This document shows positions 22,104-42,130 of a stretch of DNA of 64,000 bases, one piece after another. Below the pieces are notes generated by a model that saw only the letters and a program-made list of their open reading frames with translations, had not been told where the DNA came from and did no database searches. Location: NCBI RefSeq assembly GCF_000411295.1, contig NZ_KE150423.1, positions 186,001 to 250,000 of the forward strand. The letters are read 5' to 3'. A program made the position numbers and the translations under genes. This stretch comes from Paenisporosarcina sp. HGH0030 (GTDB taxonomy: Bacteria > Bacillota > Bacilli > Bacillales_A > Planococcaceae). Within the stretch, counting starts at the first letter, position 1. Each line of letters starts with the position of its first letter.

Positions 22104-22132
22104 TTTCACGGAAAAGACATAATAGCTATAAT
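22104..22132 (+). promoter_or_regulatory. nsrR promoter
   Basis: TTTCAC (22104-22109) and a perfect TATAAT (22127-22132) are 17 nt apart, about 27 nt ahead of the nsrR start. Confidence 0.55.
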
Positions 22133-22159
22133 GATGTAGGAAGAAAGAGCGGTGAAATA

Positions 22160-25327: not shown

Positions 25328-25370
25328 ATGGAGAGCAGAGTTTTTGACTTCTCTAATGCTCTCCTTTAAA
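25328..25370 (+). terminator. Probable terminator after the DsbA-family gene
   Basis: GGAGAGCA pairs with TGCTCTCC, with an inner GAG/CTC extension; the T-run (TTTAAA) is weak. Confidence 0.55.
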
Positions 25371-25371
25371 A

Positions 25372-25397
25372 TTGCATCATATCTCGAATTAAAGATA
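25372..25397 (+). promoter_or_regulatory. azoR promoter with MhqR-type operator
   Basis: TATCTCGAATTAAAGATA (25380-25397) matches the B. subtilis MhqR consensus tATCTcgaAtTCgAGATa at all but two central-right positions. It lies just downstream of TTGCAT (25372-25377) and so covers the spacer and likely -10. The same 18-mer occurs at 31019, and a perfect palindromic version at 42113. Confidence 0.8.
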
Positions 25398-25444
25398 AAT
25401 AATTTTAAGATATATAACTTTCTAATAAAAAGGAGATCTTCCAT

Positions 25445-26080
25445 ATGAATGTTTTAGTAGTAAAAGCAAATAACCGTCCTTCTACAGAAGGCGTTTCAAG
25501 TAAAATGCACGATATATTTTTAAATGAAGTGACTAATGCAAAAGAATTGAACATCAACACATTTGATGTATTTAAGGAAGATATGCCTTATTTCGGTCAG
25601 GATTTCTTTGATGCGATGGCAAAATCAGCTCAAGCTGAACCGTTGAACGATCTTGAACAACGTATTTTGACTGCAGCAAATAAAGCAATGGATGCTTTCT
25701 TGGAGGCGGATGTTGTGGTATTCGCATTCCCACTATGGAATAAAACGATTCCAGCTCCTTTACAAACGTTCATTGATTACATTTACCGTGCGGGTGTAAC
25801 ATTCAGCTATAATGAAAATGGACCAGTTGGTTTAGTACCGGATAAAAAAGTCATTATTTTAAATGCACGTGGTGGTGTTTACTCGACACCGGAAATGGCA
25901 CCATCTGAAATGAGCGTCAACTATGTGCGTATGATCATGAATTTCTTCGGTATTACTAATATTGAAGAAGTCATTATTGAAGGGCACAATCAATATCCAG
26001 ACCGTGCAGAACAAATTATTGCAGATGGAATGTCTGAAGTGAAAGCTGTGGCATCACGTTTGGCGAAAGTAACAGTTTAA
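25445..26080 (+). CDS. azoR: FMN-dependent NADH azoreductase (quinone reductase)
   Basis: A 211-aa flavodoxin-like protein. AFPLWNKTIPAPLQTFIDYI and NARGGVYST are FMN-binding blocks of AzoR/AcpD enzymes. These reduce quinones by two electrons and split azo dyes; in B. subtilis AzoR2 belongs to the MhqR regulon, matching the operator found upstream. AAGGAG is 9 nt before ATG 25445. Confidence 0.93.
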   Translation: MNVLVVKANNRPSTEGVSSKMHDIFLNEVTNAKELNINTFDVFKEDMPYFGQDFFDAMAKSAQAEPLNDLEQRILTAANKAMDAFLEADVVVFAFPLWNKTIPAPLQTFIDYIYRAGVTFSYNENGPVGLVPDKKVIILNARGGVYSTPEMAPSEMSVNYVRMIMNFFGITNIEEVIIEGHNQYPDRAEQIIADGMSEVKAVASRLAKVTV

Positions 26081-26486
26081 AATGCAAAAAGGATTGGGCA
26101 CATTGTGTCCAATCCTCTTCTTTTTTCTTTCGCTCAAACCCTTTAAACCGCGATCCTTGAAAAGTGAGCATCCCCAAGTCTTCTTCGGCTAGTAACCCAA
26201 ACTGGGAGCCATCGACGCCCAGTTCCATTCGATCTCCACTTTGTACTTGGAACGTCACGTAATACCACGTGCTTGCAGACGAATCTCCATGACCGCCGGA
26301 AGTTTTAGTGCGTTTCGTTACGACTTCAGCCGGTACGGTCAATACCGGTGATTGATTGTTTTTCGACCATTGAGATATTCCTTTGATTATGACAAAAATA
26401 AAAGTCCCGATTACTAAAGTGAAAATGAGAATGAAAAACGTAAAGAAAATGCCTGTTCCGAGTCCAGAAAACATAAATAAATCCAT
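26016..26486 (-). CDS. DUF2500 family membrane protein, 3' end read through
   Basis: A 156-codon frame. Residues 8-36 form one membrane helix; the following beta-rich part (VPAEVVTKRTKTSG, TWYYVTFQVQSGDRMELGVDGSQFGLL, LTFQGSRFKGFERK) matches the DUF2500 family. Homologues end near FERK, but here the frame continues through the intergenic terminator and 65 nt into the 3' end of convergent azoR. Loss of the native stop is likely. Function unknown. Confidence 0.75.
   Translation of the reverse strand: MDLFMFSGLGTGIFFTFFILIFTLVIGTFIFVIIKGISQWSKNNQSPVLTVPAEVVTKRTKTSGGHGDSSASTWYYVTFQVQSGDRMELGVDGSQFGLLAEEDLGMLTFQGSRFKGFERKKKEEDWTQCAQSFLHFKLLLSPNVMPQLSLQTFHLQ
26085..26128. terminator. Terminator between azoR and the DUF2500 gene
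   Basis: GGATTGGGCAC pairs with GTGTCCAATCC around ATT, with T-rich tails on both strands. The DUF2500 frame passes through it. Confidence 0.8.
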
Positions 26487-26562
26487 AATTTACAAACCCC
26501 CTGTAGTAAATGATACGAATTACGAGTAAAATAGTTTCAATATTAAAAAGAAGGTGACAACA

Positions 26563-27585
26563 ATGATTTGCTATCCAAATGCTCTTCAACCAAGACAGAC
26601 TATAGGATTCACTGCTCCTTCCTCCGGTGTAGAAGAAGAACTTCACCACTTGATTCATCAGAGCCAGAAACAGTTTGAAAATCGAGGATTTAACATAGAA
26701 ATTGGGGAAACGGTGTGGACACAGCATAAAGCCGCTTCAGCCACGAAAGAAAAGCGAGCAAAAGAACTGAATGCGATGCTTCAAAACAAAGATATCCACG
26801 CAATTATCCCTCCATGGGGAGGGGAAATCCTACAGGAGATTTTGCCGCTTATTGAGTGGGAGCAAGCACAATCAAAATGGATTCTTGGCTATTCGGATAC
26901 AAGTACTCTGTTGTTCGCATTGACATTGAAAACGGGTATTGCAACCGCACACGGAACGAACTTCGTAGACGTGAGAAGTGACGAATGGGATCCAACTACG
27001 AGTAGATTTTTGGATGTCCTGTCTGCTGAAGAAGGAGCAATCATCCATCAAGCTTCTTCTCTCAACTATCAATCTGAATGGTCTCATGATAGACAACCAA
27101 AACCGTACGTTTTTAATCTTGATACTGAGACGAAGTGGGAAACAGTTTACAATCGGCCGGTAGAAATGAAAGGCCGCCTTCTCGGTGGTTGCATGGATAC
27201 CATTCGCCATTTAATCGGTACACCTTACGGAGACGTGAAAACGTTCCAGCAAACATACTTGGCAAATGAACCAATCGTGTGGTTCCTTGAGAACTGTGAT
27301 ATGTCCGCAACAGATTTCCACCGTACGCTAGTGCAAATGCAGCAAACGGGTTGGTTTGATTATGCATCCGGAATCGTTTTTGGACGCACACCAGCAGGTC
27401 AAGAGGTTGGGGGATTCACCACGCTTGATGCAATGGAAAGGTTGGCAGAATCGACAAACTTACCTATTATCTATAATGCTGATATCGGTCATGTGCCGCC
27501 GCAGATGACTTTCGTCAATGGAGCGTATGCAGTGATTAAAGCTTCAGACGGTAAAGGTGAAGTGACCATGACATTGAAAAAATAA
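26563..27585 (+). CDS. S66 family LD-carboxypeptidase
   Basis: A 340-aa serine peptidase of the LdcA/MccF family. GYSDTSTLLFAL bears the nucleophile Ser, FLENCDM the Glu, and NADIGHVPPQMTFVNG the His. Members remove terminal D-Ala from muropeptides during wall recycling; the MccF branch cleaves microcin-like conjugates. ATG 26563 is about 8 nt from AAGAAGG; the GTG at 26554 overlaps that site. Confidence 0.88.
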   Translation: MICYPNALQPRQTIGFTAPSSGVEEELHHLIHQSQKQFENRGFNIEIGETVWTQHKAASATKEKRAKELNAMLQNKDIHAIIPPWGGEILQEILPLIEWEQAQSKWILGYSDTSTLLFALTLKTGIATAHGTNFVDVRSDEWDPTTSRFLDVLSAEEGAIIHQASSLNYQSEWSHDRQPKPYVFNLDTETKWETVYNRPVEMKGRLLGGCMDTIRHLIGTPYGDVKTFQQTYLANEPIVWFLENCDMSATDFHRTLVQMQQTGWFDYASGIVFGRTPAGQEVGGFTTLDAMERLAESTNLPIIYNADIGHVPPQMTFVNGAYAVIKASDGKGEVTMTLKK

Positions 27586-27586
27586 C

Positions 27587-27628
27587 AAAAAGCTGTTCTT
27601 CCCTGAAATAGAGAAGAACAGCTTTTCT
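27587..27628. terminator. Terminator after the LD-carboxypeptidase gene
   Basis: AAAAGCTGTTCTTC pairs with GAAGAACAGCTTTT and is followed by a short T-run. Confidence 0.85.
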
Positions 27629-27644
27629 TATGATAATCCTTGGC

Positions 27645-27890
27645 CTAGTATGAAACTCCACCGGCAATAGCTTGCAGAATAAAGACAACAAATAACAAGG
27701 TAATTAAACGCCAATCGAAAATAGCTGTAGTAAGAGAGTCGACTAAGTTTTTTGTAACTAAGGGAATGACTAATCCGGTTATCGTTTCAGCCAAGGCCAA
27801 AATAACCGCGAAAATAGTTATGCCTATAGGCCATTTGAGTGAACGAATCAATTGGAAAAATTGTGTGGATGATGAACTTTCAATCTTCAA
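27645..27890 (-). pseudogene. N-terminal remnant of a BmrA-like ABC exporter
   Basis: An 81-codon frame that encodes only the start of a type-I ABC exporter: a cytoplasmic lead-in (FFQLIRSLKWP), helix 1, the loop GLVIPLVTKNLVDSL and helix 2. This wording is typical of BmrA/MsbA-like half-transporters of about 580 aa. A TAG stop ends it 19 nt before the neighbouring terminator; the other helices and the ATPase domain are gone. A plausible ribosome site (AAGGGA) survives, so a short peptide might still be made. Confidence 0.7.
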
Positions 27891-28083
27891 AGTGTATGTC
27901 GTCCCTTCGTATCATTAAAATTAGTTAGTAATACCCAATTTTAATACTAATCTATCAGAGAAACATTGACTATCTTCCGACATTAATCGACAATAATATA
28001 GGAGATGAATATTGCATACATTTGGAATTTATATACAACATTTGGAAAACTAATGGATTGGGATAGATATGGGAGGTGACAAT

Positions 28084-30246
28084 GTGTCAAATAGACAAGT
28101 ACAAGCTTATTTTTTGTTGGTTATCATTTTATTGACAGTTGTTACCTTAACTATTTTTAATTATAAATCTTCAAAAGAATTTGTCCAAGAAACTGTAAAA
28201 AAAGAAAATCGTTTATTACTTGATAACTTTACAGATGAAACAAATAAGTTCTCAAATGAACGTGTAGCCGAGCTTGAGTTGATAGCTGATTACATAGCGT
28301 TACTTAAAACAGAAGAAGACATCGTTCAGTTTCTGAAGAATCAGCGTGAAAAAATGCCGTTTTTTTCTTCACTAGGTTTCATAACTCCTGAAGGGGAAGT
28401 GTTGGCGGGAGATGGTTCTCGTTTTAAAGTGAATCAACAAGAATCTTTTGATCGTGCTTTGCAGGGGGAGCTGGTCTTTAGTGAATTATTTCCTTACTAT
28501 CAAGATTCCACACAGTTGGTAAGTGCAGTCCGAATTCCTGTATTCCAAGACGGCAATATCATTGGCGTACTCTCTGGAGTATTCAATATGGGCAATCTAG
28601 TTGGTGCGATCGCATCAGATTCAAACTTACCGGGGACATTATATTTATTTAGAGAGAATCAAGTGATTTTCTCTAATTCCAATCATGATTTTGAAACAGC
28701 TGTACCTAATGGATCTCAAGTCCTGTCCCAAATCAACGCAATGGGTCAAGGGACCATCATAATAGACGAGAATAAAGCACATTATGTTATGTATCAGCAT
28801 ACTAGTGGCGGTTGGACATTTGTAGTTGACTCCTATAAAGAGAAGACTGTTCAGCAAATTTCCTCCATTTTTTGGCGTAATACGATGATTGTAGTATTAG
28901 CAATTATCTTTCTTTGTAGCATTCTCTATTATTTGAAACGTAATGAACAACGTGAAGAAAACATGTTGAAACGTGATTTATTAACGAATTTGCCAAATCG
29001 GGTAGTGTTAGAAGAACGTTTAAAAAAAGGATTGAACCCACAGAATTTTAAAAGGTTCACCTTGTACTTTATCAATTTAGATCGATTTAAAGATATAAAT
29101 GAACGAAATGGCTATCAGTTGGGTGATAGAGTGCTATTTGAGACAAGTCGAAAAATCCAGGCATTTGCCGGCAAGAATGAGTTGTACAGAGTTGGCGGAG
29201 ACGAATTTGTTCTGCTTGTACCCGCTCATTCGGAAGAAGAATTACGAACCAGGGGACTTGAACTAGTAAAATTAATGGAAGTGCCCATCGAATTATCTTC
29301 AACGGAAAGTATGTGGGTAACATTCAGTGTCGGGATTCGTAAGTCTCAATTAGGTGACTGGCCAGATCTAATGATGCAAGATGCAACATTTGCCGTACAA
29401 GAAGCAAAAAAACAAGGCGGAAACCGTTTTGTCTTCTTCTCTCAGGAACTTGCCAATCAAAATGAGCGTGTTCGTTTGATTGCTAACAATGTGGTTCATG
29501 CGTTAGCCAACAATGAATTTTTCATGGTCTATCAGCCGGTTTATGATTTATCTACGAAAAACATAACGAGCTATGAAGCTTTGTTGAGGTGGAAGTCTCC
29601 AACTATTGGACAAGTGTCCCCTGTGGAATTCATTCCTTTATTGGAAGAAAGCGATTTGATTATTCCTGTTGGAAAATGGATTTTGCGCCAAGTGACGGCA
29701 CAACTGAATCGTTGGGAAGCGGAAGGACACGAAGATTTTCAAGTGGCTGTCAATATCTCCGTCAGGCAAATGATGCATCCCGATTTTTTACATGATGTAA
29801 AATCCATTATTCACGAAGCTAACATATCTGCACAGCGATTAATTTTTGAAATTACGGAAACCGTGGCAGTACAAAATAGTGAACTAGCCAATCAAATTTT
29901 GACCGAGTTAAACAATTTAGGTGTCAAAACAGCACTGGATGATTTTGGAACCGGCTATTCTTCTTTATCAATATTAAAAATCTTACCTATCCAACAACTA
30001 AAAGTAGACCGATCCTTTATCGTGAAAATGGAACTAGAAGAAGACAAATCACTGGTGATTTTACAAGGGATTTTGGACATCGCTCGAAATCTTGGGATGA
30101 CTACCGTTATGGAGGGTGTAGAAACACTCGAACAGCTCGATTTATTGAAAAATATGGGTGCTCAAAAAATCCAAGGTTTTCTAATCAGCCAAGCCGTAGT
30201 GGCGGAGCTTGCAATTGAACTGCGAAAACAAACATGGCTGCATTAA
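28084..30246 (+). CDS. Membrane GGDEF-EAL protein with extracytoplasmic sensor (c-di-GMP)
   Basis: A 720-aa protein: membrane helix 1 (about residues 5-24), a periplasmic-side Cache-like sensor, helix 2 (about 263-285), GGDEF domain (DLLTNLPNR; intact GGDEF at about 371) and EAL domain (YEALLRW at about 497, DDFGTGYSSL, KVDRSFI, EGVET). Both active sites look complete, so synthesis or breakdown of cyclic di-GMP are both possible. The RxxD product-inhibition site ahead of GGDEF is missing. GTG 28084 is 7 nt from GGAGG; ATG 28069 precedes that site. Confidence 0.87.
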   Translation: MSNRQVQAYFLLVIILLTVVTLTIFNYKSSKEFVQETVKKENRLLLDNFTDETNKFSNERVAELELIADYIALLKTEEDIVQFLKNQREKMPFFSSLGFITPEGEVLAGDGSRFKVNQQESFDRALQGELVFSELFPYYQDSTQLVSAVRIPVFQDGNIIGVLSGVFNMGNLVGAIASDSNLPGTLYLFRENQVIFSNSNHDFETAVPNGSQVLSQINAMGQGTIIIDENKAHYVMYQHTSGGWTFVVDSYKEKTVQQISSIFWRNTMIVVLAIIFLCSILYYLKRNEQREENMLKRDLLTNLPNRVVLEERLKKGLNPQNFKRFTLYFINLDRFKDINERNGYQLGDRVLFETSRKIQAFAGKNELYRVGGDEFVLLVPAHSEEELRTRGLELVKLMEVPIELSSTESMWVTFSVGIRKSQLGDWPDLMMQDATFAVQEAKKQGGNRFVFFSQELANQNERVRLIANNVVHALANNEFFMVYQPVYDLSTKNITSYEALLRWKSPTIGQVSPVEFIPLLEESDLIIPVGKWILRQVTAQLNRWEAEGHEDFQVAVNISVRQMMHPDFLHDVKSIIHEANISAQRLIFEITETVAVQNSELANQILTELNNLGVKTALDDFGTGYSSLSILKILPIQQLKVDRSFIVKMELEEDKSLVILQGILDIARNLGMTTVMEGVETLEQLDLLKNMGAQKIQGFLISQAVVAELAIELRKQTWLH

Positions 30247-30284
30247 AAAAGGAACTTCTCTCGAATGAAGAGAAGTTCCTTTTG
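30246..30284 (+). terminator. Terminator after the GGDEF-EAL gene
   Basis: AAAAGGAACTTCTCT pairs with AGAGAAGTTCCTTTT. Confidence 0.88.
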
Positions 30285-30317
30285 CATTCTTTTGAATTAG
30301 AATTTTTCTACGTTATC

Positions 30318-30412
30318 TCATGTCTAGTTCCAAGCGCAAACTCGCACAAAGAAGGCTTTCAAATCAACCTTCCAGAGCCGGCGTCGAGTTAGAGTGGCGC
30401 TTTTCATCTTCA
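30318..30412. repeat. Second-family dispersed repeat, copy E
   Basis: GTCTAGTTCCAAGCGC at the left and TTAGAGTGGCGCTTTTC at the right frame an 85-90 bp element. The copy at 41968-42054 has the same frame (GTCTAGCTCCAGTGC ... CTAGAGCGGAACTTTTC) with CTTCCA and GCCGGYGTC inside. The ends form an imperfect inverted repeat (CTAG-TCC / GG-CTAG type). Confidence 0.55.
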
Positions 30413-30413
30413 A

Positions 30414-30935
30414 TTAAGCAGGATTTGCTTCAAGTTCTACAGTGATTTTAATGTCTTTTCCTACTAATACACCGCCAGTTTCAAGCGCTTGGTTCCATGT
30501 CAAACCAAAATCTTCACGGTTGATTTTCGTTTCAGCTGTGAATCCAACTACTTCTTGGCCCCATGGGTTTGTGCCTTTACCCTCGTATTCAGCTTCAAAG
30601 ACAACCGGTTTCGTGATGTCTTTAATCGTTAAATCTCCAGCAATTTCATATTCGTCGCCATTTTTCGAGATGTTGTTAGCCACAAATTTGATTTCCGGAA
30701 ACTCTTCAGCATTGAAAAAATCACCTGAACGAAGGTGATTGTCACGATCTTCGTTACCTGTATTAATACTTGCCACATTGATATTGAAGGCAATATTTGC
30801 ATTAGTTAAATCTGCTTCATTCGCTACTACAGTTGCACCGAAATCACCGAAATTTCCACGTACTTTTGATACCATCATATGTTTTACAGAAAATCCAATA
30901 CTTGAGTGAGTTGCGTCGACATTCCAATTTTTCAT
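30414..30935 (-). CDS. YceI family lipocalin-like protein
   Basis: A 173-aa cytoplasmic YceI protein: WNVDATHSSIGFSVKHMMVSKVRGNF opening, INTGNEDRDNHLRSGDFF in the middle, and NREDFGLTWNQALETGGVLVGKDI at the end. The fold binds polyisoprenoids or amphiphilic molecules; cytoplasmic Gram-positive members are stress-associated. It is preceded by a strong promoter with MhqR-type sites, implying induction by quinone-like electrophiles. GGAGG precedes the ATG. Confidence 0.9.
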   Translation of the reverse strand: MKNWNVDATHSSIGFSVKHMMVSKVRGNFGDFGATVVANEADLTNANIAFNINVASINTGNEDRDNHLRSGDFFNAEEFPEIKFVANNISKNGDEYEIAGDLTIKDITKPVVFEAEYEGKGTNPWGQEVVGFTAETKINREDFGLTWNQALETGGVLVGKDIKITVELEANPA

Positions 30936-30973
30936 TTTTATTCCTCCATGTTGTTTTTTATTTTCTATAAACT

Positions 30974-31036
30974 ACTATATGCAGGTGATATCTCGATGTC
31001 AATAGTTCTTAATTAAAATATCTCGAATTAAAGATA
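30974..31036 (-). promoter_or_regulatory. yceI promoter with MhqR-type operator and extra half-site
   Basis: On the minus strand TTGACA (30997-31002) and TATAGT (30974-30979) are 17 nt apart. The spacer begins TCGAGATA, an operator half-site, and the full 18-mer TATCTTTAATTCGAGATA lies upstream of -35 (31019-31036). The plus-strand form is identical to the site before azoR. Confidence 0.78.
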
Positions 31037-31110
31037 ATTATTTTTTATTAATAAACAACAATATATATATATCTAAAAGTAAGTTGTTAAAAGTAACCTG
31101 CTATTAAAAG

Positions 31111-31159
31111 GTAATTAAATTACTGAATGGTTTACGTGGGTTTTTATTTACGTTATAAT
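31111..31159 (+). promoter_or_regulatory. hxlR-type gene promoter and candidate operator
   Basis: TTTACG (31131-31136) and TATAAT (31154-31159) are 17 nt apart. The perfect palindrome GTAATTAAATTAC (31111-31123) lies just upstream and is a candidate autoregulatory site. Confidence 0.45.
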
Positions 31160-31182
31160 GACTAACTATAGAGGTGATTTCA

Positions 31183-31491
31183 ATGAAAGAAACTACATTA
31201 TGCCCACGTTTATCAAAAGCGATGGAACTTATCGGGAAAAGATGGACTGGCTTGATTTTATATCAATTATTAGAAGGTCCTCAGCGATTCAACGAAATTG
31301 AATCAGCTTTGCCGGTTAGCGGACGTCTTCTTTCCGAACGCTTGAAAGAACTTGAAAAAGAAGGATTAGTTAAAAGACATGTTTTTGCCGAAGTACCTGT
31401 GAAAGTTGAATATTCTTTGACAGATAAAGGAAAAGGGCTGAAAGATGCAATTGCCAACATCGAACAGTGGTCAAAAGTATGGTTATCTTAA
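31183..31491 (+). CDS. HxlR-family redox-sensing regulator, YodB/HypR-like
   Basis: A 102-aa winged-helix regulator. TTLCPRLSKAMELIGKRW places a conserved Cys at position 7, the redox/electrophile-sensing residue of YodB, CatR and HypR. PQRFNEIESALP and LLSERLKELEKEGLVKR are the DNA-reading and wing regions. It is divergent from yceI across the MhqR-type operator, so it may control quinone or disulfide stress genes. GAGGTG precedes ATG 31183. Confidence 0.85.
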   Translation: MKETTLCPRLSKAMELIGKRWTGLILYQLLEGPQRFNEIESALPVSGRLLSERLKELEKEGLVKRHVFAEVPVKVEYSLTDKGKGLKDAIANIEQWSKVWLS

Positions 31492-31565
31492 AATTACTTG
31501 TCAAATAGATCGCCAATACGCATACTATGTAATGGAAAGAGTTAAGGGAAAGGATTTGGCTTTTC

Positions 31566-32480
31566 ATGACTAAACAGCGTTGGTTTGACGATTTAACAGA
31601 AAAAATTTCACACGAATGTGTAAAAATAGATGAACCACTTTACTTGCACACGATGACAAAAATGGGTGGCCGGGCCGATTTATTTGTATCTCCGACTACC
31701 GAAGAAGAAGCAATTTTTGTTGTGTCATATTCCCATCAACAACAGATACCCATGCTTTTGCTAGGGAATGGATCCAATATGGTGGTCCGAGATGGTGGAG
31801 TACGTGGAATTGTCTTGAATTTGTCTAAGTTAAATGAAATAAAAATTGATGGTACGCGTGTATATGCTCAAAGCGGTGCTGATATCATTGATGTATCTAA
31901 AGCTGCAGCAAAAGAAACCTTATCAGGTCTCGAATTTGCGTGTGGTATCCCAGGTTCAGTCGGTGGTGCAATGGCCATGAATGCGGGCGCATACGGTGGA
32001 GAGATAAAAGATGTTATTTTCCAGTGTACTGTATTGACTCATGAAGGGGAAAAGCTGGTCTTATCGAAAGATGAGCTTGAGTTGGATTATCGCATGAGTG
32101 TGATTACGAAAAAAGGCTATTATGTATTATCTGCAGAATTTGACTTAGTTAGTGGAGATCAACTGACCATTGATGCGAAAATAGCGGATTTGACACATTT
32201 ACGTGAATCTAAACAACCTTTGGAATATCCTTCAGCAGGAAGTGTGTTTAAACGTCCTCCAGGTTATTTCGCTGGGAAACTTATTCAGGATTGCGAGTTG
32301 CAAGGCAAAGGATTTGGTGGAGCTGAAGTGTCGACGAAACATGCAGGCTTTATTGTAAATAAAAACAATGCCACTGCTACTGACTATATCCAAACAATTG
32401 AAATGGTCAAAGAGAAAGTAAAAGAACAATTCGGTATTGAATTAGATCTTGAAGTGAAAATTGTAGGCGAAAATGAATAA
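31566..32480 (+). CDS. murB: UDP-N-acetylenolpyruvoylglucosamine reductase
   Basis: A 304-aa FAD enzyme of the short (type II) MurB class that reduces UDP-GlcNAc-enolpyruvate to UDP-MurNAc. LLGNGSNMVVRDGGVRG and GLEFACGIPGSVGGAMAMNAGAYGGE are FAD-binding blocks, and YPSAGSVFKRP holds the catalytic Ser. The gene stands alone rather than in a mur cluster, between a redox regulator and a terminator. Confidence 0.94.
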   Translation: MTKQRWFDDLTEKISHECVKIDEPLYLHTMTKMGGRADLFVSPTTEEEAIFVVSYSHQQQIPMLLLGNGSNMVVRDGGVRGIVLNLSKLNEIKIDGTRVYAQSGADIIDVSKAAAKETLSGLEFACGIPGSVGGAMAMNAGAYGGEIKDVIFQCTVLTHEGEKLVLSKDELELDYRMSVITKKGYYVLSAEFDLVSGDQLTIDAKIADLTHLRESKQPLEYPSAGSVFKRPPGYFAGKLIQDCELQGKGFGGAEVSTKHAGFIVNKNNATATDYIQTIEMVKEKVKEQFGIELDLEVKIVGENE

Positions 32481-32482
32481 AT

Positions 32483-32523
32483 GAAGAAGCCTCTAATTCC
32501 ATTGGGATTAGAGGCTTCTTTCA
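32483..32523 (+). terminator. murB terminator
   Basis: AAGAAGCCTCTAATTCC pairs with GGGATTAGAGGCTTCTT, followed by a short T-run. Confidence 0.88.
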
Positions 32524-32572
32524 TTCCGTTAAACTAAAGAGACAACCTGTGCGAAGAATTATTGAAATAATA

Positions 32573-32616
32573 CAAGTGGAATGGACTGTGACAGGTCATG
32601 TCCACTTGTTTTTTAT
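32573..32616 (+). terminator. Second hairpin with T-run before the acylase gene
   Basis: CAAGTGGA pairs with TCCACTTG around a 20-nt partly paired loop, followed by TTTTTTATTT. It sits 65 nt ahead of the penicillin acylase start, so it may be a backup terminator or an attenuator. Confidence 0.6.
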
Positions 32617-32680
32617 TTGGAAGGACTTTTTTGGTATTAATCTAAATAATATAGTAAGAAAGTATCAGGGGGAGAAAGAA

Positions 32681-35044: not shown

Positions 35045-35071
35045 GAGGGTATGTTAGGGCGTGTTAATCGT

Positions 35072-35419
35072 ATGAAGGAATTTTTATTAGTGGGCATCGG
35101 TGGAATGATTGGTGCATTATTGCGCTATAGCGTGATGTTGACTACGCCAGATACGCTTGTTTTATGGATAGTAAATCCAATCGGTAGTTTCGTTTTGGGA
35201 TGGTTGGCAGGACGTGCTGCCATTACCGGAAAACCCGCTTCCGTTTTATGGACAACGGGAGTTCTCGGTTCATTTACTACCTTTTCAACTTTTTCTGCGG
35301 AATGGCTAGATCTAATGCAAAATCATTTTGTGTTGGCAATGGCTTATGGTCTTGGCATGACATTGACTTGTTTTGTTACAGCCGCGTTAGGCTATAAGTT
35401 TGGAGGTGCACGTAAATGA
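35072..35419 (+). CDS. crcB: Fluoride channel subunit FluC/CrcB (first of pair)
   Basis: A 115-aa four-helix protein. GGMIGALLRYSVM, NPIGSFVLGWLAG and GVLGSFTTFSTFSAEWLDL are the Fluc signatures (pore Asn and Phe-box). It overlaps the second copy by 4 nt (ATGA), so the two probably form a heterodimeric channel. ATG 35072 is preferred by homology; the ATG at 35051 would add seven residues. No fluoride riboswitch is visible upstream. Confidence 0.9.
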   Translation: MKEFLLVGIGGMIGALLRYSVMLTTPDTLVLWIVNPIGSFVLGWLAGRAAITGKPASVLWTTGVLGSFTTFSTFSAEWLDLMQNHFVLAMAYGLGMTLTCFVTAALGYKFGGARK

Positions 35420-35757
35420 CACTTTTCTCAATAGTACTTGGTGGTTGTTTTGGCGCTATGTTGAGATATGCCATTTCCCTAAAAATCCAAGGTATGAAAG
35501 GAATTCTGTTGATTAACTGCGCAGGTTCCTTCTTGATGGGCTTATCCCTGTATATAGCCGTGGAAACGAGCTGGTTGCTCATATTTTGGACGGTTGGTTT
35601 TTTAGGTGCATTCACAACTTTTTCGACTTTTGCCGTTCAATTCATTGAAAGCTGGTCGAAAGGACAGCAACGAAAAGCAGTAGGTTATGCATTTTTCACC
35701 CTCGTCGGTGGTTTTTTGTCCGTCACCCTCGGATGGTGGATTGGAACTGTTATATAG
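35416..35757 (+). CDS. crcB: Fluoride channel subunit FluC/CrcB (second of pair)
   Basis: A 113-aa partner: LGGCFGAMLRYAIS, INCAGSFLMG and GFLGAFTTFSTFAVQFIES carry the conserved pore residues. Its start codon overlaps the stop of the first copy, as in other Gram-positive crcB1-crcB2 pairs. Together they export toxic fluoride. Confidence 0.9.
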   Translation: MTLFSIVLGGCFGAMLRYAISLKIQGMKGILLINCAGSFLMGLSLYIAVETSWLLIFWTVGFLGAFTTFSTFAVQFIESWSKGQQRKAVGYAFFTLVGGFLSVTLGWWIGTVI

Positions 35758-35810
35758 CGAATTGCGAATAGATTGTCTCAAACCGTGAATAGAGGGAAAT
35801 ATGAAAGTAG

Positions 35811-35846
35811 TAAAGGGTCTTCCGTGAGAACGGAAGTCCCTTTTTA
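35811..35846. terminator. Bidirectional terminator between crcB pair and P1 peptidase
   Basis: AAAGGGTCTTCCGT pairs with ACGGAAGTCCCTTT, with A- and T-runs on both sides. Confidence 0.85.
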
Positions 35847-36827
35847 TTAGAAATCCCCTTTTTCAATGACTCTGCCTAAACGACCCGTTGTAGTTTCAGC
35901 GAAGCGAATAGACTGATAAACAGATTCTTCCGTAGCTTCAATCACCGCTTGGAATAGTTCATTCATAAGAGGGTGATCATCCCTTAATAACGTTTGTGTT
36001 TCAAACGGATGATTTGATTCATGTGAAATGATATTGGCATTAGAGAATGCGATAACAATGTCACCACTGCCGTTATGTATGTGTGTACCCGTTCGGCCGA
36101 GTCCGATTGCTGCACGTTTCGCCATTCGCTTCAATTGACGTGCGTCTAGAGGAGCGTCTGTTGCAACGATGATAATGACGGACCCATCTGGTTTGTCCAA
36201 ATTGTCTTGTGCCCAATTTGCCATACGACACTCATGAGCACGACCGAAATTCGTTAGTGTAAGAACTCCCACGGTAAATGCGTATTCTTCATGTTTAGCA
36301 ATTCGCGATGAACTCCCGATGCCTCCTTTCACCCCGTAACAAATCATCCCGGTACCAGCACCAACTGCACCTTGTTCAAAACTTCCAGGTGTAGCGTTCT
36401 CCAGAGCTTCAATCGCATGTTCGGGACGAACCGCCATAAGGCGCATCGAATTTAAATGACTATCGTTGCATTCTCCCACTACCAAATTAAGCGAACTCGT
36501 GGAATCTCCGATTGCTGGATTTTGTTCCAACATGAAGGAGAGTGTGCCCTCTAATACCGCTCCGACACTGAATGTATTTGTCAGCATTATGGGCGATTCC
36601 ATTAATCCCAGTTCTTCAAGTTGAATGAGACCGACCGTCTTGCCGAAGCCATTCAGGACAAAACTTGCAGCAGGTACTTTATGTAGGAATGGATTTTGCT
36701 CATGTGGCAATATCGCAGTGACCCCTGTACAAATCGAATCTTTTTCATCCAAATATTGTTTCAACGTGACATGTCCCACTTTTACACCGGGTACATCTGT
36801 AAGTAAATTTAATGGACCTTTTTCCAC
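35847..36827 (-). CDS. P1 family (DmpA-like) aminopeptidase
   Basis: A 326-aa self-processing Ntn-like hydrolase. NLLTDVPGVKVGHVTL opens the family domain; HNGSGDIVIAFSNAN carries the nucleophile Ser at the processing site; GAVGAGTGMICYGVKGGIG is also typical. DmpA enzymes act on N-terminal D- or L-amino acids or beta-peptides. I start at GTG 36827 because AGGAG is 8 nt upstream and homologous sequence begins there, although the frame is open to 36920. Confidence 0.8.
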   Translation of the reverse strand: MEKGPLNLLTDVPGVKVGHVTLKQYLDEKDSICTGVTAILPHEQNPFLHKVPAASFVLNGFGKTVGLIQLEELGLMESPIMLTNTFSVGAVLEGTLSFMLEQNPAIGDSTSSLNLVVGECNDSHLNSMRLMAVRPEHAIEALENATPGSFEQGAVGAGTGMICYGVKGGIGSSSRIAKHEEYAFTVGVLTLTNFGRAHECRMANWAQDNLDKPDGSVIIIVATDAPLDARQLKRMAKRAAIGLGRTGTHIHNGSGDIVIAFSNANIISHESNHPFETQTLLRDDHPLMNELFQAVIEATEESVYQSIRFAETTTGRLGRVIEKGDF

Positions 36828-36925
36828 TGGATCATCTCCTGAACGAACATAAAGACTGACCAATGAATTGGTCAGTCTGAGTTCGAATTTATTAGTAAGT
36901 ACTGAATTCATTTGCTTCAAGGTGT

Positions 36926-37345
36926 TTATTTGATTAGTAGGACAGGTGAATGTACACGTTTTGCCACTTTATGACTTACACTACCAAGCACCATTTCCTG
37001 TAGGGTATTTAGCCCCCGGCTGCCGATTACCACGATATCGTAATTTTCCTGGTTCGCATGCTCCACAATGACAGGACCGGCTTCACCATGCAGCAATTTA
37101 ATTTCAGTTGAAATCCCTTTGGACGTAAATAATTCTTTTATAGGCATAATCTTGTTTTTGCGATCTATATGCAGCTCTTCACTACTCATGCTATGAATGA
37201 CATCAGTCCTTGTTTTATCGTAATCCAAAACATATAACAAGGTAACATGCGCATCCGGACTTGAGCTCGCCAGAAAAACAGCGTGAGTTGCTGCTCTCTT
37301 CGAATGTACAGAACCATCTACGGCCACCAAAATTTGTTTATACAT
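36926..37345 (-). CDS. Universal stress protein UspA family
   Basis: A 139-aa single Usp domain: QILVAVDGSVHSKRAATHAV at the start and the ATP-binding motif VVIGSRGLNTLQEMVLGSVSHKVAKRVHSPVLLIK at the end (G-2x-G-9x-GS). Such ATP-binding stress proteins respond to starvation or envelope stress. The ATG at 37345 follows a GGGGGG site. The P1 peptidase is 98 nt downstream on the same strand. Confidence 0.88.
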   Translation of the reverse strand: MYKQILVAVDGSVHSKRAATHAVFLASSSPDAHVTLLYVLDYDKTRTDVIHSMSSEELHIDRKNKIMPIKELFTSKGISTEIKLLHGEAGPVIVEHANQENYDIVVIGSRGLNTLQEMVLGSVSHKVAKRVHSPVLLIK

Positions 37346-37529
37346 CCTCAACCCCCCTTAGTGAAGTGATTCTTCTCTGCCCTTTCTTTGCTTGAATTAA
37401 TAAATTTAAACCTTATATACATGATATATATTCTCTAGAGTGAAAGCTAAATCCTTTATTTGCGCAGATACATTTTTATTTTTTGGAGTAATCGAAGCAA
37501 TCTTTAAGTACTTCCTAAGAATCAAAACG

Positions 37530-37613
37530 AAGGTGAAAGAAATTTGTGCAACCTGGAATGCCATTCTGTCTACCTGGAACCTAAAAGTGTCAACCTGGAC
37601 CGCGATTCCAAAT
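37530..37613 (+). repeat. 21-bp periodic repeat (heptad-coding)
   Basis: ACCTGG recurs at 37551, 37572 and 37593, exactly 21 nt apart. In the open frame this reads [21 protein letters not shown], three imperfect heptads. The block ends where P-type ATPase sequence begins. Confidence 0.55.
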
Positions 37614-37619
37614 CATAAC

Positions 37620-37850
37620 GCTTTAGAAATGGCTGATGACCTGGAAAAACTTCCATATACCATTCAATTGAGCCGAAAAGCATTGCGTATTATTAAAGAA
37701 AACATTATGTTTGCATTAGGATTAAAAATAGTGGCGTTACTGCTGATCATTCCAGGGTGGCTGACTCTTTGGATTGCGATCTTTGCAGATATGGGGGCAA
37801 CGTTACTCGTTGTATTGAATTCAATGAGATTACTGCGCATTCAAAAGTAA
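37620..37850 (+). pseudogene. C-terminal remnant of a heavy-metal P1B-type ATPase
   Basis: From 37620 the frame reads [20 protein letters not shown], then [20 protein letters not shown] and [13 protein letters not shown]. This is the end of CadA/ZntA/ZosA-type metal ATPases: the MADDL-KLP hinge and the last two helices. The phosphorylation (DKTGT) and metal-binding parts are absent. The frame is open upstream to 37440 but that sequence is unrelated and repetitive, and I see no ribosome site. Confidence 0.75.
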
Positions 37851-37869
37851 CGCAGTTCGGGGGAAGAGC

Positions 37870-38988
37870 ATGCGATTAACAGAATGGACAATGGAAGAGC
37901 AAGAACAACTGATACATTTTATGACCACAAATACCTGGCCTTTTCACGGAAATTCAAATCCTGCGAGAGAAATTATTGAAAAGACTATTGAAGAGGGCGG
38001 GTACGAATCTGACGAAGTCAAAACGTTTTGGGTCGAAAATGATGATCAGCAAAAAGTTGGTATTGTAAAAGTATTCGATTTGCAAGATGAAATACCCGTA
38101 TTTGATTTGCGGATTGCTGATAGTTATCGGGGTCATGGATACGGTCCCGCTGCTTTAATCAAAGTGGCGGAATATGTATTCAATCTGCCTGAAAAGAAAA
38201 TTCGTGTGGAAGGGCATACTCGACAAGATAACTTTGCCATGCGAAAAACGTTTGAACGTGCAGGGTTTGTAAAAGAAGGTCATCTTCGAAAAGCTTGGTT
38301 TTCACCAAAAGAAAATTCCTATTATGATGCTATTACGTATGGAATAACAAGGGAAGATTTTATTGAAGGTACGACTACCCCGGTCTTGTGGGATGATCAG
38401 CAAGTACCTGAGAAATCGGAAGCGAAAGTACATGTTGCGATGCGTAATTTCCCGGATTCATTTGAATCGGAGAGACTCTTTATCCGTGCACCAAAAGTTG
38501 AAGATGCACCACTGGTGTGGGAAAGTGTCAAAGTATCCCACAAAGCCCTCCAACCATGGATGCCGTGGGCACAAAGTAGTCAAAAAATCGAAGACACAAC
38601 TGAAAATACAAGACAGGCTGTTGCCGATTTTGTCACAAGGAAAGATTTGCGACTTCATTTGTTTTTAAAAGAAACAGGTGAGTTTATTGGAGCAAGCGGC
38701 TTTCATCGTATAAATTGGGACATACCTAAGGTTGAAATTGGGTACTGGTTGGACAGTCGATTTGAAGGGAAAGGCTATATGACGGAAGCGGCTGAGCGCT
38801 TGACTGAATTTGCTTTCGAAGAGTTGGGAGCCAGAAGAGTGGAAATTCGGTGCGATACAGATAATGTGAGAAGTCGTGCTGTCGCTGAACGATTAAAATT
38901 TACGTTAGAAGGAATTCTGAAGCAGGAGTCGCTATCTGCGGATGGTAAATATATACGTGATACTTGTATCTACGCCAAAATCAAATAA
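37870..38988 (+). CDS. Tandem GNAT-GNAT acetyltransferase fusion
   Basis: A 372-aa protein with two complete GNAT domains. Domain 1 (about 1-165) has DSYRGHGYGPAALIKVAEY and NFAMRKTFERAGFVKEG. Domain 2 (about 195-372) is RimJ/RimL-like, with ESERLFIRAPKVEDA, WLDSRFEGKGYMTEAA and NVRSRAVAERLKFTLEG. RimJ/L enzymes acetylate protein N-termini or small amines; the acceptors here are unknown. GGGGGAAGAG precedes ATG 37870. Confidence 0.85.
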   Translation: MRLTEWTMEEQEQLIHFMTTNTWPFHGNSNPAREIIEKTIEEGGYESDEVKTFWVENDDQQKVGIVKVFDLQDEIPVFDLRIADSYRGHGYGPAALIKVAEYVFNLPEKKIRVEGHTRQDNFAMRKTFERAGFVKEGHLRKAWFSPKENSYYDAITYGITREDFIEGTTTPVLWDDQQVPEKSEAKVHVAMRNFPDSFESERLFIRAPKVEDAPLVWESVKVSHKALQPWMPWAQSSQKIEDTTENTRQAVADFVTRKDLRLHLFLKETGEFIGASGFHRINWDIPKVEIGYWLDSRFEGKGYMTEAAERLTEFAFEELGARRVEIRCDTDNVRSRAVAERLKFTLEGILKQESLSADGKYIRDTCIYAKIK

Positions 38989-38992
38989 CGTG

Positions 38993-39028
38993 AAAAGGGA
39001 TGTCCGTAATATACGGACATCCCTTTTG
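38993..39028. terminator. Bidirectional terminator after the GNAT fusion
   Basis: AAAAGGGATGTCCGT pairs with ACGGACATCCCTTTT around a short loop; it also serves the small minus-strand gene. Confidence 0.88.
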
Positions 39029-39184
39029 TTACACTTTTCGTTTACCCGTTACTAATTGTACGACTAAAATGATGCCTGCAATTAATAAAATCAAGTGAAT
39101 CAGACCGCCGCCAATTTTAAATACAAGTCCTAATAACCAAAAAACTAATAATACGACGATGATCATCCATAATATTCTACCCAT
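39029..39184 (-). CDS. lmo0937-family small membrane protein (51 aa)
   Basis: A 51-aa protein starting MGRILWMIIVVLLVFWLLGL, then FKIGGGLIHLILLIAGIILV and a basic tail: two short helices around a Gly-rich turn. This is the pattern of the lmo0937 family, found widely in Bacilli and linked to the SigB general stress response in Listeria. AGAGAGGATGAG precedes the ATG. A SigB-like promoter lies upstream at 39230-39255. Confidence 0.8.
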   Translation of the reverse strand: MGRILWMIIVVLLVFWLLGLVFKIGGGLIHLILLIAGIILVVQLVTGKRKV

Positions 39185-39489
39185 TCAAGCTCATCCTCTC
39201 TGCATTTAGGCCGCTTTTATATTAGTAAAGTACCCCTGATATTTTCGCCATAAACCACTCAAACTAAAATTAAGTTGTTTTTTGTACGTTTCGGCATATA
39301 TAGCTTGCACATCCTACATAATTAGGAGATGCAACTTTGTAATTAACACTTTTGGGAAAGTATCTGCTTTTAATGACCATTTAGAGTATGTGTTGATTTT
39401 AACATCCTGTTGCGCTTTGCTTTATTCATTGAGAACGATAAGCGACTATAGTACACTTGTATAAGCTATGGAAAGAGAGGAACAGAGTG
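39185..39489. other. Intergenic region between the small stress gene and mntR
   Basis: A 305-bp AT-rich region. Beyond the SigB-like promoter it holds no convincing gene; a 60-codon plus-strand frame (39282-39464) lacks a ribosome site and looks random. TATAGT at 39448 is a possible -10 for mntR. Confidence 0.4.
39230..39255 (-). promoter_or_regulatory. SigB-like promoter of the lmo0937-family gene
   Basis: On the minus strand GTTTAT and GGGTAC are 14 nt apart, close to the SigB consensus GTTTAA-N12-15-GGGTAT, 46 nt ahead of the start codon. Confidence 0.6.
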
Positions 39490-39912
39490 ATGCCGACACC
39501 TAGTATGGAAGACCATATTGAACAAATCTATATGCTGATTGAGCAAAAAGGATATGCGCGTGTATCGGATATCGCTGAATCCCTTTCAGTTCTTCCTTCT
39601 TCTGTAACGAAAATGGTTCAAAAACTCGACAAAGATGGATACTTGATATATGAACGCTACCGAGGTCTGATGTTAACACCGAAAGGGTTGAAATTAGGAA
39701 AGCGGTTGGTTAAGCGTCATGATTTGTTGGAACAATTTTTGCGTTTAATTGGCGTACAGGAAGACAAAATATATGAAGATGTTGAGGGAATAGAACATCA
39801 CTTAAGCTGGAATTCGATCGATCGTATTGCAGACTTGATTCAAGCGATGGAAGAAAACCCTGACTTTCTTCAAAAACTAGAAGAACTTAAAGAACAGCAA
39901 CAATCAGAATAG
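39490..39912 (+). CDS. mntR: Manganese-responsive repressor MntR
   Basis: A 140-aa DtxR-family regulator almost word-for-word like Bacillus MntR. Metal ligands Asp8, Glu11, His77, Glu99, Glu102 and His103 are all present ([29 protein letters not shown]). It represses Mn2+ uptake genes (mntH, mntABCD), none of which is in this window. ATG 39490 follows AGAGAGGAACAGAG. Confidence 0.95.
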
Positions 39913-39936
39913 GAAAAAGCGAAAGGAGTGTCCGCT

Positions 39937-40803
39937 ATGAGCGAAATGATATCTGGAGAAATTGTTGACTTACAGATAAAGTCACAGGAATCTTCTAAAT
40001 GGATATTATCCAATGGTGAAATTGAAGTACCAATCAATGGATCTGAAGCACCTGAAGGAGTTCAGGAAGGCGATACAATTAAAGTATTTTTATTTAAAGA
40101 CCGTCGTGGCAATTTAAGTGCAACTTCCACATTGCCACATATCACAAAAGGTACTTACGGATGGGCAAGAGTCATTAAAATGGACGAGCGTGAAGGTGCA
40201 GTCGTAGATATCGGCAGTTCACGTGAAGTCATTGTGAAACCATCTGACTTGCCATTATTAAAAGAGCTATGGCCAAAAACTGGTGATCATTTATACATGA
40301 CATTGAGAACCGATTTTAAAGGAGACTTATTCGGTCGACTGGCAACCGAAGATCGCGTAGCTGAAACATTCGTGGAAGCACCTACATCTGTAATGAATGA
40401 AAATTTGAAGGCTAGAGCATACCGCTTATTGCCAATCGGTTCGTTTTTCATCAGCGTTCCTCAAGGATACAGAGTATTTGTTCACCACACGGAACAAATG
40501 GCTGAACCACGTATAGGTGAAGAAGTTGATATTCGGGTGATTGGTGTGAAAGAGGATGGGTCATTGAATGGCTCGATGCTGCCACGAAAACAGGAGCGCT
40601 TGATGGATGATGCAGAAACACTGTATCGTTACTTGCAGGATGTTGGCGGTAAAATGCCATTTACTGATAAATCGACTCCAGATGAAATTTACGACATGTT
40701 CAATTTGAGCAAAGCTTCTTTTAAACGTGCATTAGGGAAGTTAATGAAAGAAAAGAAAATTGAACAAAAAGATGGTTGGACTTTGGTCAAATCTGACATT
40801 TAA
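39937..40803 (+). CDS. cvfB: S1-domain RNA-binding protein CvfB/YitL
   Basis: A 288-aa protein with three S1-like OB folds and a C-terminal winged helix (STPDEIYDMFNLSKASFKRALGKLMKEKKI). ARVIKMDEREGAVVDIGSSREVIV and PIGSFFISVPQGYRVFVHH are typical of CvfB, an RNA-binding factor affecting virulence-gene expression in staphylococci. It follows mntR by 24 nt; AAAGGAG is 10 nt before ATG 39937. Confidence 0.9.
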   Translation: MSEMISGEIVDLQIKSQESSKWILSNGEIEVPINGSEAPEGVQEGDTIKVFLFKDRRGNLSATSTLPHITKGTYGWARVIKMDEREGAVVDIGSSREVIVKPSDLPLLKELWPKTGDHLYMTLRTDFKGDLFGRLATEDRVAETFVEAPTSVMNENLKARAYRLLPIGSFFISVPQGYRVFVHHTEQMAEPRIGEEVDIRVIGVKEDGSLNGSMLPRKQERLMDDAETLYRYLQDVGGKMPFTDKSTPDEIYDMFNLSKASFKRALGKLMKEKKIEQKDGWTLVKSDI

Positions 40804-40824
40804 GTTTAAAATACACCTTCAATG

Positions 40825-40871
40825 GGCACAAAAAGAATGGGGAGAAAAATCTCGCCGAAACTTTTTGTGCC
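40825..40871. terminator. Long hairpin after cvfB, probable terminator
   Basis: GGCACAAAAAG pairs perfectly with CTTTTTGTGCC, and the 25-nt loop contains a nested stem (GGGGAGA/TCTCGCC). The T-run is inside the stem rather than after it, so terminator function is uncertain. Confidence 0.5.
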
Positions 40872-40965
40872 TATTCGTCGTATTATCAAAAGGGAAGCAT
40901 ATTCATAGACAGAATGGCTTGACCCATCACAATAAGAATTGTTCGTTCTGAGAGGAGAAATATCA

Positions 40966-41880
40966 ATGAAAAAGAATATTGTCCGCTTTGCTTCATTTCT
41001 ATTAGCTGCCTCGTTGCTAATGCCTTCTGGTGCTTTGGCAAGCACAGGTTCCTCATCTTCTGGAAATGTAATTAATGAAAAATTTGGCATGCCAATCGTC
41101 GTGTACGGAGCTGATTTAACAGAAGCTGAAAAACAAAGTGTCAAAGACAGTCTGAATGTGACGAGTGAAAGCGAAGTCGAAGAAATCTCAGTAAATGGCG
41201 ATGATTTAGTTAAGTATATTAAAGATGGAGATTCATCAGCCCGTATGTTTTCATCCGCAAAAATTACACGCGAGGATGCAGGCAAAGGCTTAGTGATTAA
41301 AATCGTGACAGAAGAGAATATCACGCAAGTAACCGCTGAAATGTACGAAAATGCAATGTTAACTGCCGGAATCGAAGATGCAACGGTTGAAGTGGCAGCA
41401 CCAAAGAAAGTAACGGGTCATTCCGCTTTAGTAGGGATTTACAAAGCATATGAAGTCAGTGGAGAAACATTGGACAAAGAGCGTACGGATGTAGCGAATG
41501 AAGAACTTTCCGTGGCAACCATTTTAGCTGATAAACCGGGTATTGATGAAGCAAAAGTAAGTGAACTGTTAACGGAGATTAAAAAAGATATCGCAGAACA
41601 AAATCCTGCAACTAAAGAAGAAGTTGAAAAGATTGTTCAAGATCAATTGGCGAAACTCCAAATTGAGTTAAGTCCAGAAGACCGTCAATTATTGGTCGAC
41701 TTAATGGATCGTATTCGACAACTGGACATCGATTTCAGTAAATGGTCTGATCAATTGAATGACTTAAGCAAAACAATTGAAGATAAAATCGGCAACATTG
41801 TTGAAAATGAAGGCTTTTGGCAAAGTGTTAAAGACTTCTTCAATAGTTTAATCGATTCCATTCGGTCATTATTTAATTAA
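40966..41880 (+). CDS. Secreted DUF1002 protein (YpuA-like)
   Basis: A 304-aa protein with a Sec signal peptide (cleavage likely after ALA at about residue 25). VVYGADLTEAEKQSVKDSLNV and AGKGLVIKIVTEENITQVTAEMYENAMLTAGI are the DUF1002 core. The C-terminal half is helical and charged, ending in an amphipathic segment. Function unknown; homologues occur across Bacilli and Clostridia. GAGAGGAG precedes ATG 40966. Confidence 0.88.
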   Translation: MKKNIVRFASFLLAASLLMPSGALASTGSSSSGNVINEKFGMPIVVYGADLTEAEKQSVKDSLNVTSESEVEEISVNGDDLVKYIKDGDSSARMFSSAKITREDAGKGLVIKIVTEENITQVTAEMYENAMLTAGIEDATVEVAAPKKVTGHSALVGIYKAYEVSGETLDKERTDVANEELSVATILADKPGIDEAKVSELLTEIKKDIAEQNPATKEEVEKIVQDQLAKLQIELSPEDRQLLVDLMDRIRQLDIDFSKWSDQLNDLSKTIEDKIGNIVENEGFWQSVKDFFNSLIDSIRSLFN

Positions 41881-41883
41881 GTG

Positions 41884-41910
41884 AAAAACCTCCCAAGTGG
41901 AGGTTTTTTT
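41884..41910 (+). terminator. Terminator of the DUF1002 gene
   Basis: AAAAACCTCC pairs with GGAGGTTTTT and is followed by T residues. Confidence 0.88.
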
Positions 41911-41967
41911 CATGAGGTGAAATGTTTAAATCTTGTACATGCAGCTACTTTCTTTCAAGGCTCAATT

Positions 41968-42054
41968 GGTCTAGCTCCAGTGCAAGAAAGGCGAAATATA
42001 CGTTTTCTTCCTTCCATCGCCGGTGTCAAACTAGAGCGGAACTTTTCACTTTTC
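41968..42054. repeat. Second-family dispersed repeat, copy F
   Basis: Framed by GGTCTAGCTCCAGTGC and CTAGAGCGGAACTTTTC, it shares the frame and the internal CTTCCA / GCCGGTGTC blocks with the copy at 30318-30412. No gene covers it. Confidence 0.55.
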
Positions 42055-42112
42055 TACATTGAAACAGAACAATTGCGCATCCTTTAATTGCGTGATAAAC
42101 TAAAAGAAAAAA

Positions 42113-42130
42113 TATCTCGAATTCGAGATA
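42113..42130 (+). promoter_or_regulatory. Perfect palindromic MhqR-type operator
   Basis: TATCTCGAATTCGAGATA is a perfect 18-bp palindrome and equals the MhqR consensus known from the B. subtilis mhqNOP and mhqED promoters. It lies 22 nt ahead of the dioxygenase start; TTGCGT at 42088-42093 is a possible -35. Confidence 0.85.

Follow-up and report, generated by a model that had tools for sequence, protein, structure and literature searches.

Putative MhqR-type operators before azoR, mhqO and yceI in Paenisporosarcina suggest that a YceI-family lipocalin belongs to a quinone-responsive regulon

The 64,000-nucleotide stretch of Paenisporosarcina sp. HGH0030 analysed here (the window; C3:186001-250000 of a 3.52-Mb genome in five contigs, C1 and C3 being contig labels) carries three 9-9 inverted repeats of the TATCTCGAA type, each standing before a gene and each resembling the operator of the quinone repressor MhqR. 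An exact copy of TATCTCGAATTAAAGATA is found at 25380-25397 on the forward strand before azoR, and another at 31019-31036 before yceI, where the site is assigned to the reverse strand and reads TATCTTTAATTCGAGATA on the strand of that gene. The third, TATCTCGAATTCGAGATA, is a perfect palindrome at 42113-42130 on the forward strand and ends 22 nt before mhqO. azoR (25445-26080, forward strand) encodes an FMN-dependent NADH-azoreductase of 211 aa (NF010075, E = 5.9e-73, above the cut-off; Flavodoxin_2), yceI (30414-30935, reverse strand) a YceI-family lipocalin of 173 aa (PF04264, E = 2.5e-53), and mhqO (42153-43121, forward strand) an MhqO-like glyoxalase/extradiol dioxygenase of 322 aa (PF00903, E = 2.3e-23, in two stretches).

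Both operator forms are strongly over-represented in the window. At up to three mismatches, TATCTCGAATTAAAGATA gives 5 matches in 4 places against 0.17 (sd 0.40) in shuffled windows and TATCTCGAATTCGAGATA gives 3 against 0.06 (sd 0.24), and none of the shuffles reached the observed counts. A candidate with three mismatches at 29078-29095 was rejected as a chance match, since it lies inside the coding frame 28069-30246. Over the entire genome, exactly five sites lie within two mismatches of TATCTCGAATTCGAGATA (reversed-pattern control, 0), and they precede azoR, yceI, two mhqO-like genes and one mhqD-like gene; the site at C1:554133 belongs to the second MhqO-like dioxygenase gene, and that at C1:775619 stands 25 nt before the MhqD-like hydrolase gene (Abhydrolase_2). 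An earlier note on this DNA had read the three 18-mers, the perfect palindrome among them, as the operators of a local quinone regulon. The sites are confirmed at their positions and the genome scan at up to two mismatches shows none at unrelated genes, but the set is genome-wide (five sites on two contigs) and not local alone. The site at 31019 does stand before yceI, as that note had it, but proves to be the distal one of a pair in the divergent yceI/hxlR intergenic region, hxlR being a gene that the note had not listed.

The proximal member of this pair is a half-operator, ACTATTGACATCGAGATA (30989-31006, reverse strand), whose right arm TCGAGATA is intact and which overlaps the -35 box of the predicted yceI promoter (TTGACA-17-TATAGT; 30974-31002, reverse strand; 11/12 consensus, 3 sites found against 2.8 in shuffles). 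This promoter is kept across eight Paenisporosarcina (TTGACA in 7/8, TTGAC in 8/8 and TATAGT in 7/8). The two elements lie 30 bp apart, centre to centre, and occupy -71/-72 and -101/-102 from the yceI start codon in all eight; the proximal sequence is the more constant, with 5-6 mismatches to the full palindrome. At azoR, the operator covers about +1 to +18 of the start point inferred from the predicted promoter TTGACT-17-TAAAAT (25344-25372, forward strand; consensus scan 10/12, 1 found against a shuffle average of 1.0). A Staphylococcus aureus MhqR operator is described as reaching from -6 to +12 relative to the transcription start in the accessible part of PMC6798810, a geometry that matches the predicted azoR promoter. 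Of eight loci read in other genera, five likewise have the operator starting 1-2 nt past the predicted -10 box of yceI (L104, L111, L116, L125 and L128; L numbers denote fetched loci and G numbers relative genomes, G001-G007 being of the same genus as the analysed one). The scan before the window mhqO predicted no good promoter. Divergent from yceI lies hxlR (31183-31491, forward strand), which encodes an HxlR/DUF24-type regulator with an N-terminal Cys (PF01638, E = 2e-30); its predicted promoter (31131-31159) is situated about 95 bp beyond the distal yceI site. A 13-bp palindrome before hxlR, GTAATTAAATTAC (31111-31123), is present in 4/8 Paenisporosarcina yceI upstream regions and is a candidate operator of HxlR itself.

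The association of the operator with yceI extends well beyond this genus. We collected 36 yceI loci from Bacillales (families now filed by NCBI under Caryophanales) and counted 34, setting aside L105, which nearly duplicates L104, and L148, which shares its genome with L122. Within 350 nt upstream of yceI, 24 of these carry a site at up to two mismatches, 30 at up to three and 32 at up to four, while the 44 yceI loci from other phyla have none within five mismatches in the same interval. At up to three mismatches, 45 sites fall in approximately 11,300 yceI-upstream positions and 8 in 339,825 other positions; seven of these eight precede azoR-, mhqO-, mhqR- or nitroreductase-like genes, and the remaining one lies just downstream of mhqR (L113). 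yceI also stands beside mhqR, mhqO or mhqD in four genera: two mhqO-like genes and mhqD come after it in Lysinibacillus (L106) and Ureibacillus (L112), an mhqR-like gene does so in Mesobacillus (L113), and in Calidifontibacillus (L116) yceI itself comes after mhqR. In Caryophanon tenue (L121) the operator precedes a nitroreductase-yceI pair. The operator in 30/34 Bacillales loci, together with these neighbours in four genera, indicates that yceI is not a chance member of the regulon. The nearest named relative of the window YceI is that of Paenisporosarcina quisquiliarum (94% identity). Among the other-phyla loci, a MarR-like gene divergent from yceI was observed in 21/44, all Actinomycetes by their titles (L130-L172; 28-35% identity to the MhqR-like protein MhqR-B described below), and the tie between YceI and MarR proteins may therefore be older than Bacillales.

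The distribution of the operator follows that of the repressor. Among 61 genomes including the analysed one, with an MhqR-like gene counted at E <= 1e-6, the operator occurs in 47/48 genomes with such a gene and in 0/13 without. Shared ancestry weighs less in a subset of 24 genomes from 24 other families of the class, where the figures are 10/11 and 0/13 (Fisher p = 5.6e-6). All 25 named yceI genomes tested (25 of the 80 yceI loci) possess an MhqR-like gene and 24 have the operator at up to two mismatches, Jeotgalicoccus being the sole one without. In G041, which lacks an MhqR-like match, yceI (59.6% identity) has no operator at up to three mismatches. We also read 80 operator loci, which are a part of all sites and of which 15 come from named genomes chosen for carrying yceI. 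They hold 91 sites, and for 79 of these a gene of one of eight kinds starts no more than 260 nt away: MhqO-like 39, MhqD 10, YceI 10 (6 sites, before 4 genes, from kinship-chosen genomes and 4 from genomes chosen for having yceI), AzoR 9, MhqR 5, DoxX 3, nitroreductase 2 and DsbA-like 1. Of the remaining 12, three precede genes for short-chain dehydrogenases, two precede acetamidase genes, one a luciferase-like monooxygenase gene and one an FMN reductase gene; five precede no such gene, and two of those five lie before a dnaG-like gene. The acetamidase/formamidase genes (L196, L199) and DoxX genes (L259, L260) with operators are possible regulon members.

The repressor is not in the window, as the earlier note had stated, and the search of the genome found an intact MhqR-like MarR gene on contig C1. 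This gene, MhqR-B (151 aa, C1:1338977-1339417), matches our model A1, a profile built from MhqR-like proteins including both of the analysed genome with MhqR-B as its first row, at E = 3.2e-72; the paralogue MhqR-A follows at 2.5e-40, after which the genome matches drop to 3.4e-17. The best solved match of MhqR-B in a single-sequence search is S. aureus MhqR (SaMhqR, 9QDR; E = 2.2e-29, the next at 1.8e-11). Read from the alignment with SaMhqR, MhqR-B retains the quinone-pocket residues F11, F39, E43 and H111 (numbering in the chain is 3 higher), together with a DNA-contact loop of the S-G-S form. Its gene comes after an ogt-like gene (PF01035) and a gene that we take to be kinase-like; mhqR of Bacillus subtilis presumably lies near kinD and ogt. 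The reading frame of MhqR-A (C1:553800-554060), which immediately precedes the second mhqO, ends after 86 codons. Its pseudogene spans C1:553800-554119 (L006 1168-1487; model A1 match C1:553818-554075) and has an in-frame stop and a missing stretch, which corresponds to the remainder of the MarR fold including the DNA-binding wing; its sole solved match is SaMhqR. Closely similar copies are open in G003, G004, G007 and G021 (62-70% identity) and a copy in G036 bears stops. MhqR-A may have been lost repeatedly while MhqR-B stays.

Taken together, these sequence comparisons lead us to infer with considerable confidence that the three window sites are operators bound by a quinone-inducible MarR repressor of the MhqR type, most likely MhqR-B, and that yceI is co-regulated with the detoxification genes. 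The regulon proposed in the earlier note, yceI included, thus gains support from site conservation, from the co-occurrence of operator and MhqR and from the intact MhqR-like gene, and its expectation that azoreductases and ring-cleaving dioxygenases are targets agrees with the operators that these genes carry in the analysed genome and its relatives. Without quinone, an MhqR dimer would cover the promoter/start region of azoR, mhqO, mhqD and yceI and block RNA polymerase; a quinone entering the MhqR pocket would release the dimer, so that all of these genes would be switched on jointly. The site pair would mediate the block at yceI, with the half-operator over the -35 box and the full operator 30 bp upstream. 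As 30 bp is about three helical turns, two dimers would lie on one face of the DNA and might bind cooperatively.

The assembly resembles the B. subtilis regulon of MhqR (YkvE), a MarR-type quinone repressor with a 9-9 inverted repeat and with azoreductase, dioxygenase and MhqD-type hydrolase targets (PMC6798810, in the part available), in that azoreductase, dioxygenases and an MhqD-type hydrolase share the operator. It differs in the addition of yceI and in the two MhqR paralogues, one of them broken. The nearest solved repressor to MhqR-B is that of the S. aureus MhqR/mhqRED system (9QDR/9SMZ), whose operator is identical to the window palindrome at 16/18 positions; the accessible part of PMC6798810 confines the S. 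aureus regulon to mhqRED and leaves yceI outside, whereas the analysed genome has the operator before yceI.

Several observations weigh against the proposed co-regulation. In a kin-chosen set that was not selected by operator (50 yceI genes in 43 genomes), a site at up to three mismatches precedes only 19/33 close yceI genes (>=60% identity) and 4/17 distant ones. The distal site degrades to 4-6 mismatches in 4/8 Paenisporosarcina, and the operator geometry at the window yceI departs from the position of the SaMhqR operator. G038 has MhqR-like matches and no operator. A site with three mismatches lies at C1:379950 (L005 1501), 26 nt before a dnaG-like gene. From S. aureus, MhqR is reported to control mhqRED alone (PMC6798810, accessible part), and in Staphylococcus epidermidis a gene annotated yceI goes down (-1.26) under the xanthone alpha-mangostin. 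As to the dnaG-like gene, the analysed genome, G004 (L239) and G006 (L245) each have a similar 18-mer, TATCTCGAATTCAATATw, at a distance of 26 nt ahead of it; its spacing is that of a real operator, and it was not counted as a target.

In the GTDB family of Jeotgalicoccus, yceI is present in 29/33 genomes, and 30 loci of 31 matches were read. At -39 to -50, each of the 11 loci L331-L341 carries a site that departs from one of three operator forms by 1-4 mismatches, and the best matches of the other 19 have 2-8 mismatches (3-6 in L317-L330). L317-L330 share a common box with small variants, TTACTTGC-TTTTT-GTAAC, near the yceI -35 region. Outside this family, the same GTDB order provided 71 genomes with 72 yceI matches, most of them presumed Staphylococcus, and the upstream regions of a hand-picked 40 of the 72 were studied. 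Three of the 40 come within 4 mismatches of the MhqR operator. The motif GTATAN5TATAC, which we take to be the box of the DUF24 regulator QsrR, is found at up to one mismatch within 170 nt of yceI in 32/40 (1.1 expected from shuffles) and in 0/40 in the adjoining 170 nt further upstream. Two of these genomes have exact copies before yceI and before genes for CatE-like glyoxalase/dioxygenase, luciferase-like and nitroreductase proteins (7 of 16 loci read; 23 sites in all). The bare motif is not enriched over these two genomes (14 vs 13 and 9 vs 7, reversed control), and weight is given only to its over-representation upstream of yceI and to the similar genes that it precedes. Under kendomycin, a quinone methide, a YceI-like protein of S. 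aureus rises 5.93-fold together with azoreductase (5.38-fold), SACOL2020 and SACOL0409 (PMC4721675, in the part available). The QsrR-type box before yceI agrees with this response and with the limitation of S. aureus MhqR to mhqRED.

Such a box in presumed Staphylococcus raises the question of whether the divergent HxlR protein, a relative of YodB and QsrR, binds the window sites or mainly regulates yceI. It is the nearest regulator gene to the yceI site and adjoins yceI or lies within about 1.2 kb of it in 7/8 Paenisporosarcina, and quinone sensing by way of an N-terminal Cys occurs among DUF24 regulators, QsrR being an example (PMC6798810, accessible part). Nevertheless, tblastn over the 80 yceI loci detected HxlR in just two, both from Paenisporosarcina (L097 and L098), while 28 other Bacillales loci have the operator; the operator block is retained where hxlR does not directly adjoin yceI and persists in the Paenisporosarcina locus L268, in whose fetched stretch HxlR was not found. 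Moreover, the window sites are of the MhqR type in sequence, GTATAN5TATAC is absent from all three, and the two HxlR genes of the genome adjoin none of the other four sites. HxlR as main regulator was consequently rejected, and we consider this explanation very unlikely. The S. aureus quinone sensor QsrR, to which the available part of PMC6798810 assigns catE, catE2, SACOL0409-azoR1, frp and yodC, uses a different box and Cys-based sensing, and on present evidence it is not the type of regulator acting at the window sites.

The truncation of MhqR-A could also mean that control has been lost, leaving the operators as relics and the genes constitutively expressed. We find this very improbable, if anything more so than regulation by HxlR, and rejected it because MhqR-B is intact; in addition, the sites of the analysed genome are not decayed, and G001 and G005 combine a single MhqR-like match, with 49% identity like MhqR-B, with perfect operators. 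Least probable of all is a yceI site that matches by chance or serves another gene, with yceI itself unregulated. The site stands 83 nt ahead of the start codon, beyond the predicted -35 box, unlike those of azoR and mhqO, but the block is kept in position in 8/8 Paenisporosarcina even with a differing upstream gene, and in many other genera the sites lie close to the yceI start, with a chance expectation far below one.

The structural model of the window YceI (pLDDT 88) has the polyisoprenoid-binding protein TT1927b (1WUB) as best Foldseek match (E = 4e-19, TM 0.87), a fold shared with the lipocalins BcnA and GNA1030. According to the accessible part of PMC9113575, BcnA is secreted, meningococcal GNA1030 was purified from the periplasm and binds ubiquinone-8, and most YceI structures contain an isoprenoid in their tunnel. 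The window YceI differs in its lack of a signal peptide, for which a domain match beginning at residue 4 leaves no room. By analogy it may bind an isoprenoid or quinone, and beside the detoxifying enzymes it would most likely act as a soluble lipocalin for isoprenoid quinones or other lipophilic electrophiles. Elsewhere, a Ralstonia yceI mutant grows more poorly under methyl gallate (PMC8472277, part available), and B. subtilis ispA and mhqR mutants both yield L-forms growing in liquid (PMC4510147, part available), which hints that MhqR and isoprenoid metabolism may be linked. A broader proposal makes YceI an effector of quinone stress throughout Bacillales that answers to two sensors, a QsrR-type DUF24 protein in Staphylococcus and MhqR in Caryophanaceae, Bacillaceae and the Jeotgalicoccus group. 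Isoprenoid quinones or lipophilic electrophiles would be kept in its cytosolic tunnel and either passed on to azoreductase and ring-cleaving dioxygenases or shielded from these enzymes. This proposal, lipocalin role included, is tentative, and we regard it as a serious possibility somewhat short of probable. Our literature search, which does not exclude an earlier account in subscription journals or regulon databases, returned no report tying MhqR or QsrR to YceI, and among the YceI-quinone papers listed none is on a YceI-MhqR regulon by title.

Other genes of the window were also noted. A DsbA-family gene (about 24617-25324) is situated just upstream of azoR, and a DsbA-like gene has its own operator in G001 (L243, around 3001). 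At 20819-22597 lies a flavohaemoglobin-like gene (Globin, FAD- and NAD-binding domains), divergent from a gene for an Rrf2-family regulator that is nearest to NsrR/RirA and scores below their cut-offs.

With the proposed regulation, a binding protein would join the enzymes of the MhqR regulon, and the operators point to DoxX, nitroreductase, luciferase-like, short-chain dehydrogenase and DsbA-like genes as candidate further members. YceI proteins are widespread and bind isoprenoids, and a conserved link with quinone-sensing repressors, one that apparently outlasts a change of repressor type, would offer them a testable role.

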